Shown one piece after another: positions 19,183 to 27,315 of a stretch of 44,315 bases of DNA. The DNA is from a virus. The position numbers were made by a program, and so were the translations under genes. The stretch is taken from positions 10,688 through 55,002 of IMG/VR virus record IMGVR_UViG_3300030430_002936; one strand, given 5' to 3'. Under the pieces are notes generated by a model that was not told the DNA's origin, did no database searches, and worked only from the letters and a program-made list of their open reading frames with translations. Each line of letters starts with the position of its first letter. Position 1 is the stretch's first letter.

Positions 19183-19614
19183 TTACTCCTCTAAGGATCT
19201 AATACCTGATGGTCTTTGTATTGAATCAAGATAAGATCTTGCATTCTGATAAGTTGCCCCAGGCGCTAACTCTCGCAAATATGGAAAGAACATAAAAGTT
19301 GCCTCATTCATATCTTTTGAATTTGCTAAGATTTCTTCAGCAATATCTGAAATTTGATTTCTAGTAGATGCTTTTGAAGCAACTAAGCCTGACATATTTC
19401 TCAGACCACCCATAAATCTTTCTTTCAAAGCCTCAAGACCACTCTTAATTGGTGTCGGAGATCTGCCATAAAGCAAAGGCCCAATTCCTTCTGGCGGAAC
19501 TACAACTTCTTCTGGCTCCATTACAGACATATTTCTATCAGGCGTACCCATTACTACGGTTTCACCTAAGACACTTAAAATATTATTATCTAAATCGGAA
19601 CGCCCTCTAGCCAT
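19183..19614 (-). CDS. Small protein of late-operon start, unknown function
   Basis: A 143-residue protein starting MARGRSDLDNNILSVLGETVV. It has a flexible Pro-rich first half (MEPEEVVVPPEGIGPLLYG) and a helical second half (ISDIAEEILANSKDMNEATF). Its ATG overlaps the upstream stop (TAATG) and its stop lies directly before the 694-residue gene. It may be a minor structural protein. No family recognised. Confidence 0.55.
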   Translation of the reverse strand: MARGRSDLDNNILSVLGETVVMGTPDRNMSVMEPEEVVVPPEGIGPLLYGRSPTPIKSGLEALKERFMGGLRNMSGLVASKASTRNQISDIAEEILANSKDMNEATFMFFPYLRELAPGATYQNARSYLDSIQRPSGIRSLEE

Positions 19615-19907
19615 TACATTAATTCGTCTAATTGTGCTTGAATTTGATTGTTTTGAGCCATTTGTGGTTGGTTTGTTAGCATCTCAGGATTCTTTAAAGC
19701 TTGGTCAGCCATCAATACTTCTTCTAGAGTTAACCCAAATTGATTTAAAAATTCATTTATTTCTTCCTCAGACATGCCAGCAGCTTTCATTTCTGCAATC
19801 ATGTTGATAAGTTCTCCCATAGCCACTTTAGCTTCCTCCATATCTTGACTTGATAAAGTTTCTAATTCTTCGTTCATACCCATTTGTGGGTTCATCATCT
19901 CTTCCAT
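19614..19907 (-). CDS. Acidic Met/Gln-rich small protein, first gene of the late operon
   Basis: A 97-residue acidic helical protein (MEEMMNPQMGMNEELETLSS..., with AKVAMGELINMIAEMKAAGMS next). The start at 19907 has CGGAG 8 bp upstream. It is the first gene after the large intergenic region carrying the candidate late promoter. Composition resembles small proteins that precede terminase modules in marine phages. Function unknown. Confidence 0.6.
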   Translation of the reverse strand: MEEMMNPQMGMNEELETLSSQDMEEAKVAMGELINMIAEMKAAGMSEEEINEFLNQFGLTLEEVLMADQALKNPEMLTNQPQMAQNNQIQAQLDELM

Positions 19908-19999
19908 ATCTATACTCCGTAGTGAGCAGGCCCAAACAATTCTAGAGGAGAAGAGTTTATTAGAAGTCTGAACCTGCTACTTATGCCATACATGCACAT

Positions 20000-20027
20000 A
20001 ATATAACTCAAAAATAGAAATTGTTAA
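20000..20027 (-). promoter_or_regulatory. Candidate sigma70-type late promoter
   Basis: On the minus strand TTAACA, a 16-bp spacer and TATATT lie about 95 bp upstream of the first late gene. Each hexamer has five of six consensus bases. It lacks the TTAC-N5-GTAA dyad found on the early promoters, which fits separate timing of the late block. Confidence 0.5.
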
Positions 20028-20151
20028 AATGATTGTTATTGTTTGTGTGTTTTATTGTGCTTGTACATACCTATGTGTATATACCCCATTTTGGGGGGTG
20101 CCGAGCCCAGGAATCCCGAGCTGGCCAGATTTCCCGACCCGAAAGAATCCT

Positions 20152-20187
20152 AAAAAAAAAGAGCCAAGCATTTCTGCTTGACTCTTC
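20152..20187 (-). terminator. Intrinsic terminator of the 20206-20448 transcription unit
   Basis: Minus strand AAGAGTCAAGCA, loop GAAA, TGCTTGGCTCTT forms a 12-bp stem with one G-U pair. It is followed by nine T residues. This is a strong rho-independent terminator 20 bp after the stop codon and should isolate the early units from the late operon. Confidence 0.9.
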
Positions 20188-20205
20188 CAACTAGGGAGAA
20201 TTGTT

Positions 20206-20448
20206 CTAGCTGTCTAAATCATTCTCCAATCTAGGGTTTTCAACTTGACCATTTATTATGGTGTTGCCTTCCCTTCTCATGCCTTCTTCAGTCATGTTAA
20301 CAACTCTTTGCATGTCGATAGTATCGAACTCAGCGTTAACAATATAAGGCGTTCCATTTATCACTAAGCTAAAAGCTTGGTACTCAACGAAATTGCATTC
20401 AGCACCATTCTCTAACTCTACTTTTATTAATAGTTTTTTAACTCTCAT
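20206..20448 (-). CDS. Small early protein, unknown function
   Basis: An 80-residue protein starting MRVKKLLIKVELENGAECNF, beta-rich at first (YQAFSLVINGTPYIVNAEFD) and acidic at the end. AAGGAGACATT lies directly upstream of the ATG. It is alone in its unit between a weak early-type promoter (20482-20510) and a strong terminator. No family is recognised; likely host-interaction or regulatory. Confidence 0.65.
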   Translation of the reverse strand: MRVKKLLIKVELENGAECNFVEYQAFSLVINGTPYIVNAEFDTIDMQRVVNMTEEGMRREGNTIINGQVENPRLENDLDS

Positions 20449-20481
20449 AATGTCTCCTTAATTGATTAGTTAATAAGGTAA

Positions 20482-20510
20482 GCTTAACACGAGAAGATAC
20501 TAAAAGTAAA
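20482..20510 (-). promoter_or_regulatory. Early-type promoter with degenerate TTAC-N5-GTAA site
   Basis: Minus strand TTTACT, 17-bp spacer, TTAAGC. The -35 side reads TTTACTTTTAGTATC, close to the TTTACAAATAGTAAC motif of the other early promoters. The -10 is poor, so it is the weakest member, and it overlaps the end of the DUF3846-like gene upstream. Confidence 0.4.
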
Positions 20511-20512
20511 AT

Positions 20513-20902
20513 CTATTTGATAGTAATAAATTGTGGCGGAACCAAATACTTTTCTGTCCTAACCAAGTCATCAGCAAAGGCAATCTTTTCACGATACCAA
20601 TTCAAAGACATTTCAGGTGAGACACTCTCTCCCTCGAGATTCGTTCCGACAATCAAACCATTACCAAAGAGGTTGTGCTTATCCAAGTGATCAAAAACAA
20701 ACATGTAGTTTTTATCAATCAACAAACCTTCGTCATCAATATAGATACAATCATTAGTCCCCCGAACCCGAACAGCATCAAAGGCACTACATCTTTTTAC
20801 ATCAGTATGTAAATACTTGTAGATGTCTTTGTAGTTAAGTTCTTTGTCTAACTCTATTGGGAAAATGCCCTTCAGATTACTGTCAATAATATATGCTTTC
20901 AT
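20513..20902 (-). CDS. DUF3846-like small early protein
   Basis: ATG at 20902, overlapping the upstream stop as TAATG, is preferred over a GTG at 20911. The 129-residue product starts MKAYIIDSNLKGIFPIELDK and has NDCIYIDDEGLLIDKNYMFV and NGLIVGTNLEGESVSPEM. The order (beta strand, helix, iyiDDEG...N, GngliVG...) fits the DUF3846 pattern found in phages and plasmids. Function of that family is unresolved. It is co-transcribed with the coiled-coil protein upstream. Confidence 0.5.
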   Translation of the reverse strand: MKAYIIDSNLKGIFPIELDKELNYKDIYKYLHTDVKRCSAFDAVRVRGTNDCIYIDDEGLLIDKNYMFVFDHLDKHNLFGNGLIVGTNLEGESVSPEMSLNWYREKIAFADDLVRTEKYLVPPQFITIK

Positions 20903-21237
20903 TACTTCCACCTCTTCTCTTCGCCAAGTTTAATTATAGCTTTTTCATAAGGTGCATAACCTAAATGTCTTAGAGTAAAACCTCTTTCAGTTTCGCTTTC
21001 TAATCCTTTAAAAGAAATGTCTCTTAGATAACTAATATAAAATAGATATTCCATTCTACTTCTCATGTCATTAAGCTTTTCTAATTTTTTTCGTAAAGAT
21101 TTTTCTTGCTTTTCTATTTTTGCAGTTTCTTCTTTTAAAAGTAAGAATTGCTGAAATATTTCAGTCAAGTCATCTCTGTCAATTCTAGATAAAGCTTCAA
21201 CAGTTTCATCTATTTGCCAATCGGGTTGCATAATCAT
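20902..21237 (-). CDS. Coiled-coil early protein
   Basis: A 111-residue protein with a clear heptad region at about 22-58 (EIFQQFLLLKEETAKIEKQE, then KSLRKKLEKLNDMRSRM). The C-terminus has GFTLRHLGYAPYEKAIIK. AAGGAG lies 5 bp before the first ATG; a second Met two codons later is possible. It is the first gene of the unit behind the promoter at 21265-21293. Function unknown. Confidence 0.6.
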   Translation of the reverse strand: MIMQPDWQIDETVEALSRIDRDDLTEIFQQFLLLKEETAKIEKQEKSLRKKLEKLNDMRSRMEYLFYISYLRDISFKGLESETERGFTLRHLGYAPYEKAIIKLGEEKRWK

Positions 21238-21264
21238 AATGTCTCCTTAGTAGTTAATAAGATA

Positions 21265-21293
21265 ATGGTACATGAAAGATTACTAATTGTAAA
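21265..21293 (-). promoter_or_regulatory. Early promoter with TTAC-N5-GTAA operator
   Basis: Minus strand TTTACA, 17 bp, TACCAT. The dyad TTAC-AATTA-GTAA (21280-21292) covers the -35 box. It would drive the coiled-coil and DUF3846-like genes. The -10 is imperfect; the dyad is exact. Confidence 0.6.
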
Positions 21294-21469
21294 TACTAAA
21301 AGCAAAAATAATTTAACTTAATTTAAACGACACTTCAGAGCAAAAGAAAAAAATTCCACGCAATCCCAGGCGCAGATCCTGCTGTTTCTATTGTGTACTC
21401 TGTAGGAGTTGGTAACTTCAGATAACACCCAGAAGAAAACCCGACACCCGACTCCGACTTCAGTCGCCC

Positions 21470-21556
21470 AATAAAGTGAAACCCCTAGCTAATCGACAAA
21501 GCTAAGGGTTTCTGTTTTGGGACATTATGACCAAGAATAGCAAAGCTATTATTGAT
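21470..21556 (-). ncRNA. Candidate small RNA in early spacer
   Basis: A promoter-like TTGACA-16-TAGTAT (21563-21590) overlaps the stop of the upstream gene. A transcript starting near 21556 would contain hairpin AATAGC-TTT-GCTATT and then a 12-bp stem (AAACCCTTAGCT / AGCTAGGGGTTT) followed by CACTTTATT. No start codon leads to a useful ORF. The U-tract is weak, so the 3' end is uncertain. It may instead be just the terminator region of the gene upstream. Confidence 0.3.
21479..21511 (-). terminator. Stem-loop after the 21587-21841 gene
   Basis: Arms of 12 bp (one G-U pair) around a 9-base loop. The trailing sequence on the minus strand is CACTTTATT, a poor U-tract, so it is a weaker terminator than the other early-unit hairpins or an RNA-stabilising structure. 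Confidence 0.5.
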
Positions 21557-21561
21557 ACATA

Positions 21562-21590
21562 AATACTACCTAAGTTCTACTATTTGTCAA
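21562..21590 (-). promoter_or_regulatory. Early-type promoter overlapping a stop codon
   Basis: TTGACA with TAGTAT at 16 bp or AGTATT at 17 bp. The -35 side TTGACAAATAGTAG matches the early promoter motif, with a degenerate dyad (CTAC-N5-GTCA on the plus strand). It lies at the TGA of the upstream gene and has no gene directly behind it. Confidence 0.45.
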
Positions 21591-21841
21591 GACTCTTCAT
21601 TATACAATTTGCGTAGCAAAGCTTTCCAATCAGCATCTTGGTCATCAGGACTTTCGTAGTAAGAGTTGGTAAAGATTTCAGGTCGATACTTCGACTTTAC
21701 TTTCTCCACACATTTGTCGCACACATACGCAACAAAGATACCACTCGCATCAAACAGCTCGTAAACATAATCTTCATTCCAATCGTATATGTGTCCTCCA
21801 TCACAATTATCCAGTTCCCAATCATCATATTCATCAGTCAT
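21587..21841 (-). CDS. Small acidic early protein with a CDKC motif
   Basis: An 84-residue acidic protein (MTDEYDDWELDNCDGGHIYD...). It contains YVCDKCVEKVKSKYRPEIF followed by an acidic C-terminus. The Cys-x2-Cys with an upstream Cys-x2-His (CDGGH) could form a small zinc site. Short proteins with CDKC..K...yrpeIF are seen in other phages. It is alone in its unit, behind the promoter at 21876-21904. Function unknown. Confidence 0.6.
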   Translation of the reverse strand: MTDEYDDWELDNCDGGHIYDWNEDYVYELFDASGIFVAYVCDKCVEKVKSKYRPEIFTNSYYESPDDQDADWKALLRKLYNEES

Positions 21842-21875
21842 TATATTCTCCCGAATAGTTGATTAAGTTTCACTT

Positions 21876-21904
21876 ATTATAACTAAGTGGTTACTAAATG
21901 TAAA
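21876..21904 (-). promoter_or_regulatory. Early promoter with exact TTAC-N5-GTAA operator
   Basis: Minus strand TTTACA, 17-bp spacer, TATAAT (perfect -10). The dyad TTAC-ATTTA-GTAA spans 21891-21903 and covers the -35 box. The leader to the next ATG is about 30 bp with GGGAGAA as ribosome site. Confidence 0.8.
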
Positions 21905-21975
21905 GTAGGGCCTGGTGGATCACCATAGCCTCGGATCCTGGGTGTTTCTATATGTGTGTATATATATAGTTGCTT

Positions 21976-22004
21976 AAAAAAAGAGAGCAACCCCGAAGGG
22001 TTGC
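21976..22004 (-). terminator. Intrinsic terminator with UUCG tetraloop
   Basis: GCAACCC-TTCG-GGGTTGC followed by TCTCTTTTTTT on the minus strand, about 20 bp after the stop of the gene at 22022-22276. Strong rho-independent terminator. Confidence 0.9.
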
Positions 22005-22021
22005 CCGACCTCCGACTCCGA

Positions 22022-22276
22022 CTAAAAAAATCTTTTTTTATTGAAATCGTATGTTTTTAAAATATCGCAAACAAGCCATTGCCAACAAAACGACTCGCTA
22101 TTATCTGCACTCGAAATTGCAAGACACCCACAATCTAAATGCTTTTGGTCTAAGAAGAAATCGTAGTCAATATCCTCATCAGAGTTGATGTGTCCAAACA
22201 TTTCAAATGTTCCTTGTTTAAGTTCAAGCTTCATATAAAACTCGTGATGTTCTATTCTATCTAGGTATTCCGACAT
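22022..22276 (-). CDS. Small early protein, unknown function
   Basis: The ATG at 22276 is chosen because GGAG lies 6 bp upstream and the upstream gene stops one base earlier; a start at 22300 would overlap that gene by 23 bp. The 84-residue product begins MSEYLDRIEHHEFYMKLELK and contains CGCLAISSADNSESFCWQW. It has several Cys and Trp residues and an acidic centre. The stop TAG is part of the TAGTCGGAGTCGG motif. No family recognised. Confidence 0.55.
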   Translation of the reverse strand: MSEYLDRIEHHEFYMKLELKQGTFEMFGHINSDEDIDYDFFLDQKHLDCGCLAISSADNSESFCWQWLVCDILKTYDFNKKRFF

Positions 22277-22277
22277 A

Positions 22278-22577
22278 CTAAGCTCCAAAATGGTCAACAA
22301 GAATTCTGATACTCTTGTAAGCGTGTTCTTCTAGTTCTTCTGTTGGTATATCATTAGGGTTTTCAACACCATACCATTCGCTATAATGTTTTTCTTCTTG
22401 CTCACCAATCAGATAACTTAGACTACCTACGGCTTTGCTTAGCTCTTGGTTTTGGATTACTGACTTTACTCCAAAGTAATAACCAACATCATATTCTTTA
22501 TCATCAGTTTCTGATTTAAGAACAACGTCTATAAGTTCGTCAGTCAAGTTAGCTTTGGCTTCTTTTAATAGTTTCAT
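22278..22577 (-). CDS. Small acidic early protein, unknown function
   Basis: A 99-residue helical protein starting MKLLKEAKANLTDELIDVVL, with DVGYYFGVKSVIQNQELSKA and many acidic residues. CGGAGAAACATT precedes the ATG. It is the first gene of a two-gene unit behind a perfect -10 promoter (22600-22628). No domain is recognised. Confidence 0.6.
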   Translation of the reverse strand: MKLLKEAKANLTDELIDVVLKSETDDKEYDVGYYFGVKSVIQNQELSKAVGSLSYLIGEQEEKHYSEWYGVENPNDIPTEELEEHAYKSIRILVDHFGA

Positions 22578-22599
22578 AATGTTTCTCCGTTAAGATTTA

Positions 22600-22628
22600 A
22601 TTATAACATACATGTTACTATTTGTAAA
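22600..22628 (-). promoter_or_regulatory. Early promoter with exact TTAC-N5-GTAA operator
   Basis: Minus strand TTTACA, 17 bp, TATAAT. The dyad TTAC-AAATA-GTAA (22615-22627) covers the -35 box. Best overall match of the family; it drives 22278-22577 and 22022-22276. Confidence 0.85.
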
Positions 22629-22713
22629 AAACCACTTTTGTCATCCAAATCGAGAACCATTTTCTGGAACCACCTGGTCTATTGTTTTTGTGTGTTTACA
22701 TTCTGATCCAAAT

Positions 22714-22740
22714 AAAAAAAGGGCAGTCCGAAAACTGCCC
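22714..22740 (-). terminator. Intrinsic terminator
   Basis: Minus strand GGGCAGT-TTTCGG-ACTGCCC followed by seven T residues. It ends the three-gene unit 23304-22759. Confidence 0.9.
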
Positions 22741-22758
22741 CGATTATTCCGACTCCGA

Positions 22759-22821
22759 CTAACCTAACCAATAATCAACGATTACAACCAGAACGATTAG
22801 AGTAATAAGCATGACCTCCAT
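22759..22821 (-). CDS. 20-residue single-TM micropeptide (DYWLG type)
   Basis: ATG at 22821 overlaps the stop of the upstream gene (TAATG); stop TAG at 22759 runs into GTCGG. Product MEVMLITLIVLVVIVDYWLG: a hydrophobic helix with a conserved-looking DYWLG end. It closely resembles the micropeptide at 26607-26678 on the other strand (9 of 20 aligned positions identical, most others conservative). AAAAGAG lies 8 bp upstream. Probably an inner-membrane peptide that modulates a host membrane protein; the pairing of two copies is the main support. Confidence 0.55.
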   Translation of the reverse strand: MEVMLITLIVLVVIVDYWLG

Positions 22822-23168
22822 TAAATTGCTCTTTTAATGTTATCAGTCAAATTATTATATCGCTCTGCAAAATAATCTATAACATATTCAAATTCATATA
22901 TTGGCTTTTTGTAACTATCACATCCCCAATAACCTTCGACAACTTGCTCTCTGGTGTTTAGCCAAATAACTGGCCCACCCCCAGCAAGTAAAATTATAAC
23001 TCCAGTTACATTATTCCATTGGTCAATTACATATTCCCAACTGTAAGGCTCATAATAGTTTTTTTCTTCTGGTTCAGAAAATTGCATTCTTCCGCTTGAA
23101 CAATCATCAGCATAACCGTCAACCATTTCTCGTAGTCTTATTTCACAATCTGTTAATTTTTCAGCCAT
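22821..23168 (-). CDS. Early protein, conserved-looking phage family, unknown function
   Basis: A 115-residue protein starting MAEKLTDCEIRLREMVDGYA. The middle holds WEYVIDQWNNVTGVIILLAG and PVIWLNTREQVVEGYWG; the end is YVIDYFAERYNNL. It looks like a compact alpha/beta fold. Its start overlaps the upstream small ORF by 8 bp and its stop overlaps the micropeptide start, so three genes are coupled. Confidence 0.6.
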   Translation of the reverse strand: MAEKLTDCEIRLREMVDGYADDCSSGRMQFSEPEEKNYYEPYSWEYVIDQWNNVTGVIILLAGGGPVIWLNTREQVVEGYWGCDSYKKPIYEFEYVIDYFAERYNNLTDNIKRAI

Positions 23169-23304
23169 TCAAACGCCTCCTGGCTCTCGCCCTTTTATTT
23201 TTAATGTGGACTTTGGCTTGGCGTAATGAATTAAACTCCAGACCGTCTATAAAAATACGGTAATGACCGTACTTATTTTTTTCATATTTAAGTTTTTCAC
23301 TCAT
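23161..23304 (-). CDS. 47-residue basic early protein
   Basis: ATG at 23304 behind CGGAGAAAAAGAT; stop TGA at 23161 inside the start of the next gene (ATGGCTGA overlap). Product begins MSEKLKYEKNKYGHYRIFID and continues GLEFNSLRQAKVHIKNKRAR, with a strongly basic C-terminus. Length and charge suggest a nucleic-acid or regulatory role. First gene of the unit behind promoter 23335-23363. Confidence 0.6.
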   Translation of the reverse strand: MSEKLKYEKNKYGHYRIFIDGLEFNSLRQAKVHIKNKRARARRRLNG

Positions 23305-23334
23305 ATCTTTTTCTCCGTTTATTAGTGAGCTTTT

Positions 23335-23363
23335 ATAATACCTAATTGGTTACTATTTGTCAA
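23335..23363 (-). promoter_or_regulatory. Early promoter (TTGACA-17-TATTAT)
   Basis: Perfect -35, 17-bp spacer, TATTAT. The -35 side TTGACAAATAGTAACC matches the family; the dyad has one mismatch (TGAC-AAATA-GTAA). It drives 23304-22759. Confidence 0.8.
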
Positions 23364-23464
23364 CATATTACAGAGCAAATGCGTATTGATTCTGGCGGTA
23401 ATGTCAGCCTGGGCAGCTAGAACTGCGTGTGATCCTTATTGTGTACTTTAGATATTTAAAAGAT

Positions 23465-23490
23465 AAAAAAAAGGGGAGCAAAAGCTCCCC
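23465..23490 (-). terminator. Intrinsic terminator
   Basis: Minus strand GGGGAGC-TTTT-GCTCCCC followed by eight T residues, about 20 bp after the stop of the 23507-23692 gene. Confidence 0.9.
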
Positions 23491-23506
23491 CCGACTGCTC
23501 CCGACT

Positions 23507-23692
23507 TTAATCTTGAATTGGCATATCAGCTTTTTCAGTTAAAAAATCTCTGCCTAAAAGTCCTTCTTCTTCTACAAATGTTTCAAATATTTGCAGTTCT
23601 TTTAAAAAGTTTTTAGTCAAACTTTCTTCTAAAACTTTTCGAAAAACTTCGGCAGATAATCTGTCAGGACAATTAATAGTAAATCTAATCAT
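23507..23692 (-). CDS. Small early protein, unknown function
   Basis: A 61-residue protein starting MIRFTINCPDRLSAEVFRKV, then LEESLTKNFLKELQIFETF and an acidic end. AGCGGAGAAAAA precedes the ATG. It is alone between promoter 23719-23747 and a strong terminator. Resembles a small alpha/beta fold; no family recognised. Confidence 0.6.
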   Translation of the reverse strand: MIRFTINCPDRLSAEVFRKVLEESLTKNFLKELQIFETFVEEEGLLGRDFLTEKADMPIQD

Positions 23693-23718
23693 TTTTTCTC
23701 CGCTTAATTTATGAATCC

Positions 23719-23747
23719 ATTATGTCAGCTAGTTTACTATTTGTCAA
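23719..23747 (-). promoter_or_regulatory. Early promoter (TTGACA-17-CATAAT)
   Basis: Perfect -35, 17-bp spacer and CATAAT. TTGACAAATAGTAAAC is nearly identical to the other early promoters over 14 bases. Drives the 23507-23692 gene. Confidence 0.8.
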
Positions 23748-23836
23748 CTATTTTTTTTTGCAACCAAATTGATCCAGAGAAGTTGATCTGGTGGATCAAG
23801 ACCTGGAGATCCAAACTGGTGTGTTATAATTGTGTT

Positions 23837-23936
23837 AATTAACTCCAGAAACCACGCCCGACAAGTCCCAACAGCAGTCCCGACATGTGAGCCGACTTTG
23901 TTGATCCTATTCAGTTGGGAAAAACTGCTTTTTTTT
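23837..23936 (+). ncRNA. Candidate plus-strand small RNA with CCGAC motifs
   Basis: An extended -10 box (TG-T-TATAAT, 23822-23830) without a clear -35, then about 100 bases ending in CAGTT-GGGAAA-AACTG and a run of eight T residues. The RNA would carry three CCGAC copies that are complementary to the GTCGG motifs at the 3' ends of the leftward early mRNAs. The terminator stem is only 5 bp, so the call is tentative. Confidence 0.25.
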
Positions 23937-24025
23937 ATAGTAAGCGACCAAACGAGAGGGGTAATGCGATTTCCTTTTCTGATAGCAACGACTGAATATT
24001 TTTTATTATTTTTTATAGTTACTTA

Positions 24026-26712: not shown

Positions 26713-26760
26713 GAAGTAGAGCGATACTTGTCTTTTTCTCCCCTTTTATTGCTCTACTTC
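26713..26760. terminator. Inverted repeat between rightward operon and terS; possible terminator
   Basis: GAAGTAGAGC (26713-26722) and GCTCTACTTC (26751-26760) are perfect 10-bp arms around a 28-base loop. The right arm lies inside the last codons of terS. On the minus strand the stem is followed by GTTTTGTATTTT, fitting termination of terS transcripts; on the plus strand no U-tract follows, though the loop is T-rich. Confidence 0.5.
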
Positions 26761-27315
26761 ACTTTCTAAATCACTCACATTATTATTTTCTAAAGCGTTA
26801 TCTTGAATAACTTGTGCTTCTATTGTCTGGCCAAGCAGACTTTCCAGGCGATTTTCGACTTCTTCTCTACTCATCTGATCTATTTTTCCAAACATTACTT
26901 CCTTACGATCTACAATCAGACCCCCGACTCTTAATAAACTATTCTGAGCAGAGATTGCAGCGTTAAATGAACCAGCCTCTAAAGCTTTGTCCCGAATGTC
27001 ATAAAGGTCTTGTACGGCACGATCATAATTTAGTTCATACTTTTTCTTAACTTCATTCATAAGGTAGTTGTATTCGGATCTAATCAGAGGATTGCTCATG
27101 AGTTTGTTTGCAGCTTGTCGTGGATCCTTATAGCCAGCTTTCGCTGCCGACTCAATCAAAGATAGTCTAGGATTATTGACAGCAGTCCAAATGAATATTC
27201 TTTGTCTGCGATTTAATTTCTTATCCAGGTTGCAAGTTTCGATAGGGGGAGTATCTTTTTCAGCAAGTAGATTGCCTTCGTAAGTTGTATCATGTTTCTT
27301 TTGATAATCTGCCAT
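26746..27315 (-). CDS. terS: Terminase small subunit
   Basis: A 189-residue protein. Residues about 31-75 (KLNRRQRIFIWTAVNNPRLS, LIESAAKAGYKDPRQAANKL, then MSNPLIRSEY) form the helix-turn-helix of terminase small subunits (l..kQ..Fi......n...AA..AGY.......a.kLm..p.i). A coiled helical segment (about 80-130) for oligomerisation and an acidic C-terminus follow. It recognises the packaging site and works with TerL, which is encoded over 9 kb away on the same strand. The gene sits alone between early operons. No clear ribosome site precedes the ATG. Confidence 0.8.
   Translation of the reverse strand: MADYQKKHDTTYEGNLLAEKDTPPIETCNLDKKLNRRQRIFIWTAVNNPRLSLIESAAKAGYKDPRQAANKLMSNPLIRSEYNYLMNEVKKKYELNYDRAVQDLYDIRDKALEAGSFNAAISAQNSLLRVGGLIVDRKEVMFGKIDQMSREEVENRLESLLGQTIEAQVIQDNALENNNVSDLESEVEQ

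Follow-up and report, generated by a model that had tools for sequence, protein, structure and literature searches.

The locus studied here raises the question of why similar spacers recur between the small early genes of a virus, and of what is kept and what is exchanged around them. The window is the whole stretch of DNA that was analysed, 44,315 nucleotides representing positions 10688-55002 of the 55,002-base IMG/VR record IMGVR_UViG_3300030430_002936, and a preliminary description of it had proposed six repeated promoter-terminator cassettes in minus-strand gaps. Our analysis makes it likely that these gaps belong to an early-gene cassette array with conserved spacers, joined by a second, directional layer built on the motif GTCGG. 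The polar motif is the more novel part; the cassette array is a scheme like that of the promoter early stem-loop (PeSL) elements, in another phage family. The gaps tested, read on the minus strand, with predicted promoters and terminators, were as follows.

23960-23693, minus strand: spacer A, with three GTCGG, ACACA, four GATC, CCAGG and a promoter whose predicted -10 box ends at 23719, without an upstream terminator
23506-23305, minus strand: spacer B, with two GTCGG, terminator 23492-23471, ACACAATA, GGATC, CCAGG and promoter 23363-23335
22757-22578, minus strand: spacer C, with two GTCGG, terminator 22741-22720, GGATC, ACACA, CCAGG and promoter 22628-22600
22021-21842, minus strand: spacer D, with three GTCGG, terminator 22006-21985, ACACA, CCAGG/GGATCC, GATCC and promoter 21904-21876
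21458-21238, minus strand: spacer E, with three GTCGG, ACACAATA, GGATC, CCTGG and promoter 21293-21265
20205-19908, minus strand: spacer F, the final one ahead of the late operon, with terminator 20188-20157, one GTCGG plus TCGGG variants, CCTGG, three ACACA and a weak promoter 20027-20000

The repetition of these spacers is real. Compared with 500 dinucleotide shuffles of the same six spacers (1,519 nt in total), the counts were 14 for GTCGG (shuffle mean 0.66), 11 for ACACA (1.8), 10 for GGATC/GATCC (1.9), 7 for CCWGG (2.0) and 6 for the promoter core TTKACAWWTAGTA (0.0), with 0/500 shuffles as high for any of the five elements; as the gaps had been picked beforehand by the preliminary description, these values measure the departure from shuffles and not the surprise of discovery. 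The order GTCGG, ACACA, GGATC, CCWGG, promoter was exact in spacers A, B and E, with small departures in the others: in C, GGATC stands 14 nt ahead of ACACA; in D, CCWGG overlaps GGATC; and F has no GATC and a weak promoter. The same order in each gap, as originally claimed, stood for three spacers and has to be loosened for the other three; the two exceptions named at the time, a first gap (in plus-strand order) without GATC and a last one without a terminator, were correct and correspond to spacers F and A. The fixed place of the terminator after GTCGG did not survive, since it was observed in B, C and D only, the order being reversed in E and F. A clear stem-loop terminator lies upstream of the promoter in B, C, D and F, and that of spacer E lies in a small-RNA-like unit described below.

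The promoters form one family, in agreement with the preliminary description. Early sigma-70-like promoters in five gaps match the consensus at 9-11/12 and share a common core, spacer F being weak, and the likeness extends past the -35 and -10 boxes to TTKACAWWTAGTA, whose six exact matches in the window all fall in the array (0.06 expected).

The tests made on relatives, namely those of small terminase gene (terS) codons, strand polarity, exchange breaks, cluster spacing and opposite-strand genes, are free of the pre-picking weakness. Relatives outside the close group contributed 95 deduplicated GTCGG clusters. Among these, ACACA peaked 0-50 bp after the cluster (66, versus 3-11 per 50-bp bin upstream), GGATC (32) and CCWGG (36) were frequent at 50-100 bp, with much lower counts upstream, and promoters peaked at 100-150 bp (13). 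Thus, similar ordered gaps do recur in relatives; relative L268 has three of these composites at short distances from each other, with no called array gene between them.

The genes and units between the spacers, and their fate in relatives, are listed here.

23507-23692, minus strand: A61, a small gene of 61 aa; unrelated genes stand instead in L188, L201, L193 and L197
23304-23161, minus strand: A47
23168-22821, minus strand: A115
22022-22577, minus strand: A99 and A84b, a two-gene unit; missing in L188
21587-21841, minus strand: A84, a small gene; missing in L198, L199, L404 and L295
21237-20902, minus strand: A111; replaced in L267, L201, L289 and L295
20901-20513, minus strand: A129, DUF3846-like, just under the Pfam cut-off
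20206-20448, minus strand: A80, a small gene; retained in most close relatives

The array was compared with 13 relatives. Reading along it, homology stopped near start codons in 26/61 cases and resumed near stop codons in 27/61, where 6.4 were expected in either case; because the breaks cluster at these points, the small genes are swapped start-to-stop between conserved spacers. The replacement of A61 in L188 occupies the stretch between promoter and stop codon, and that of A84b in L267 extends to the stop codon and GTCGG of spacer D. In L188, which lacks A99 and A84b, the junction lies inside TAGTCGGAGTCGG, a sequence standing at both flanks of this unit in the window, and in L267 one gene sits between two TAGTCGGAGTCGG copies. 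These data show gene gain, loss and replacement between the spacer copies, as had been predicted, and the small genes do not change independently of the spacers. The exchange presumably proceeds by recombination guided by the conserved flanks. GTCGG as a general, integron-like recombination joint was rejected, since L188 is the single exact case and no overall excess was found at the breaks.

In T4-type phages, PeSL elements are described (Arbiol 2010 and Comeau 2014, as cited in PMC4503421) as repeated composites of a terminator and an early promoter between small hypervariable genes, tied to gene shuffling. By this description in the citing literature, the present array resembles them in its way of working, and the likeness noted earlier stands as regards the promoter in the gaps and the gene exchange between copies. 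Unlike PeSL elements, which belong to T4-like phages, the array lies in a podophage family, has the additional ordered GTCGG, ACACA and GGATC/CCWGG elements and an unfixed terminator, and contains a motif, GTCGG, that extends past the cassettes. It is not classed as PeSL, because the genome is not T4-type and the terminator place varies. The genome gave no T4-type match, its closest isolates by the large terminase (TerL, ~60% identity) being the pelagiphage podophages HTVC027P and HTVC023P and the phages DSL-LC04 and 023Pt_psg01. It encodes a large terminase (gene terL), a portal, a small terminase, an exonuclease VIII-like protein, a primase-polymerase/helicase, a C5 cytosine methylase and an AAA_24 ATPase, and since the ends of the record overlap by 77 bases, the map closes into a circle.

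The GTCGG motif had been taken as a mere regulatory part of the cassettes. This reading found no support, as the motif fills the interval from terS to the late genes, lies inside terS and occurs antisense in opposite-strand genes. The boundaries of the interval in the window are the following.

26746-27315, minus strand: small terminase gene, Terminase_2-like, with two same-strand GTCGG (26924 and 27147)
19454-20134, minus strand: end of the GTCGG-marked interval, with the final minus-strand GTCGG at 20134 and the first opposite-strand one at 19454, where the late operon starts

In 104 dereplicated intervals of relatives, oriented from terS towards terL, the most strand-polar hexamer was GTCGGG (787 vs 36), and the scaled counts past terL were 12 vs 65. 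On the terL strand, GTCGG reached 12-38 per 10 kb at distances of 10 down to 2 kb ahead of terL, then dropped to 0.8 in the final kilobase; in the counterpart of spacer F in relative L404, the final plus-strand and the first minus-strand GTCGGG are 35 bp apart. The terS gene carried the densest coding signal, with GTCGG at 62 per 10 kb (123 vs 31, z 26, the z-scores overstating independence because the relatives share ancestry); synonymous-codon shuffling gave 85 vs 19.1, in all three frames and with zero on the other strand, and by the same shuffling the terL and portal coding sequences had no terS-like excess. Sense copies were scarce in the portal gene (5 vs 17.9). Antisense GTCGG in the opposite-strand genes of the interval amounted to 209 vs 86 in all called open reading frames (ORFs) and to 89 vs 36.5 (z 11) in those with homologs in other loci. 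As this enrichment is antisense, GTCGG tracks the DNA strand and not the transcript. The exchangeable plus-strand array genes showed little excess (16 vs 12.7), which is expected if these genes are newcomers. The clusters have a preferred 7-bp spacing. These data indicate that GTCGG is a directional DNA signal over the terS-to-late interval.

Three roles were rejected. The place of GTCGG relative to terminators varies, which rules it out as a part of the terminator; the antisense enrichment rules out, as its main role, a tag of RNA 3' ends at stop codons; and the polarity flip beyond terL, considered as a second Chi arm, was mostly codon usage. What codon correction left was a depletion of sense copies, together with slight excesses of antisense copies in terL and of copies between genes.

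Among the sister lineages, HTVC023P-type pelagiphages, at ~60% TerL identity, likewise have small genes set apart by long gaps in the terS-terL interval, and differ in having no GTCGG enrichment; in the HTVC027P group, terS is also inverted and without GTCGG. In HTVC027P-type pelagiphages, strand-polar 7-bp arrays of the GCTTGAA type occupy the equivalent terS-terL interval (L174, 16505-16626 and 17395-17434; L405-L484). As these arrays lie in the same interval, the data suggest that the clades keep the marked position and differ in the word.

Several points weigh against the explanation preferred here. The isolates HTVC023P, HTVC027P, 023Pt_psg01 and DSL-LC04 share the single-gene layout and lack GTCGG, the terminator varies more than any other part of the spacer, and GTCGG showed no preference for the exchange breaks of the 13 relatives (9-10/61 vs 6.3 expected). 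The promoters, terminators and transcription units of the array are predictions, a simple longest-first rule defined the ORFs, and the relatives are not independent of each other. Further, GTCGG clusters occur up to ~9 kb from terS, which is wider than any pac region known to us.

Packaging or DNA-end processing is our best guess for the role of GTCGG. In its most specific form, which we regard as possible though doubtful, the interval would be a pac region in which the small terminase binds GTCGGG repeats in its own gene and the next spacers and aims headful packaging at terL and the late genes. The motif lies in and beside the small terminase gene, as pac requires, with its strongest coding signal there; the polarity runs from terS to terL; and the 77-bp overlap closing the genome is compatible with headful packaging. 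The pac of P22 lies within the small terminase gene, and that of SPP1 contains direct repeats where the terminase gene begins (PMC9611059, PMC4737164); as a putative pac, GTCGG shares with them directional repeats within and around the small terminase gene and differs in having several clusters over 5-9 kb. This spread argues against pac, as do the inverted, GTCGG-free terS of the sister clade and the biochemistry of the SF6 terminase, in which little specificity for pac repeats was found (PMC4737164). Alternatively, GTCGGG may be Chi-like, stopping host RecBCD/AddAB entering from a packaging end close to the late operon, and stimulating recombination, and therefore the gene turnover in the interval would also be explained. 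We consider this improbable, even with the strict polarity towards the late-operon boundary and the presence of the exonuclease VIII-like gene and the AAA_24 ATPase in the phage. Lambdoid Chi, likewise a short motif, is concentrated in an unusually variable region that separates the replication genes from the packaging site or late region (PMC3784561); GTCGG differs from it in sequence and in its tight 7-bp clusters, which are atypical of Chi, and the opposite arm is little above codon expectation. Neither of two candidate bacterial genomes, for which the host identity is weak, supported Chi: GTCGG(G) was not over-represented (z 1.2-1.3) in the metagenome-assembled genome (MAG) Gammaproteobacteria bacterium TMED104 (G013), and no GTCGG excess was found in the AT-rich, 1.2-Mb rhodopsin-bearing chromosome G372. 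TMED104 contains a 53 kb contig (L404 / G013:C4) with 99% identical TerL, which is a weak hint of the host, because the contig may be a binning artefact.

An origin-like role, in which GTCGGGT iterons, an ACACA/DnaA-box-like tract and a GATC-rich stretch by a promoter would be present in several copies, seems as improbable as Chi. The clustered short repeats with their 7-bp spacing, GATC clusters in some relatives (L053), TATACACA-type words and a minimum of the cumulative GC skew near 24 kb of the window would fit it; the ACACA surroundings are merely A-rich and yield no DnaA-box consensus, so that DnaA boxes were rejected, and so many copies, with scattered GTCGG inside terS, are unexpected of an origin. 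A role at the RNA level, where a long transcript would cross the array from terS onwards and GTCGG would act in its antitermination, its processing or its early decay, is slightly less probable still: GTCGG often begins right at stop codons, precedes the terminators in B, C and D and is scarce as sense copies in late genes, and against this stand the strong antisense enrichment in opposite-strand gene runs and the variable placement relative to terminators. Early phage regions often hold single-gene units with their own promoters. The spacers may thus be ordinary regulatory ones, with functional conservation of promoters and terminators, normal mosaicism and extra motifs that represent lineage-specific drift. 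The sister isolates, which combine this layout with motifs of their own, agree with this reading, which we regard as unlikely, since ordered and spaced non-promoter elements are kept in many relatives and GTCGG is selected at the codon level.

Among other features, a seventh promoter of the family heads a short non-coding unit within gap E.

21478-21590, minus strand: small-RNA-like unit, with promoter 21590-21563, invariant core AATAATAGC-TTT-GCTATTCTTGGTCATAATGTCCCAAA, a GC-rich hairpin and then a weak T-rich tail

The invariant core, of ~40 nt, contains a small hairpin and is followed by the terminator-like hairpin. The unit is kept in 9 relatives, several of which have both flanking genes replaced or lost. 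It matched no Rfam family, PADLOC gave nothing convincing, and RNAalifold found zero compensatory pairs in the alignment; by eye, a C-G to G-C swap between variants, missed by the gapped alignment, was seen in the terminator stem. Pairing of the core with the start regions of the array was rejected, as it was weak (mean -15.7 vs shuffles -12.9, sd 1.1) and the best individual matches were no better than shuffles.

GGATC occurs genome-wide at about double the expected count (94 vs 49), beyond the spacers too. At least six GATC sites, mostly GGATCC/AGATCC, follow a GTCGG cluster in L053 (6484-6700), recalling GATC-rich plasmid origins. The region 24080-23880, between divergent operons, is conserved (79-97% in close relatives), has a partial tandem duplication in L179 and is a possible origin or control region.

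Taken together, the array probably represents the early region in a family of lytic podophages. As far as the sequence suggests, each small gene or gene pair would be a separate transcription unit, starting at a strong host sigma-70 promoter with the family-specific core and usually ending at an intrinsic terminator. The composites of GTCGG cluster, ACACA, GGATC/CCWGG and promoter stay, while the genes between them are replaced start-to-stop or deleted. As a second layer, GTCGG(G) marks one strand between the small terminase gene and the start of the late operon, whatever the transcription direction. Its reader would most likely be a phage DNA-handling protein, and the first, still doubtful, candidate is the small terminase in its role of initiating packaging. 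We tentatively propose, as a possibility somewhat stronger than pac itself but short of even, a phage-encoded directional code, in which GTCGGG words, in all frames of coding sequence and antisense, mark one strand of the early interval for the phage DNA-handling machine, the sister lineages use GCTTGAA there, and cassettes are exchanged inside the interval.

To our knowledge, hardly any early gene of the abundant marine podophages has a known function, and the gain and loss of these genes are not understood. Mapped exchange points with conserved spacers make early gene gain and loss testable from sequence alone.

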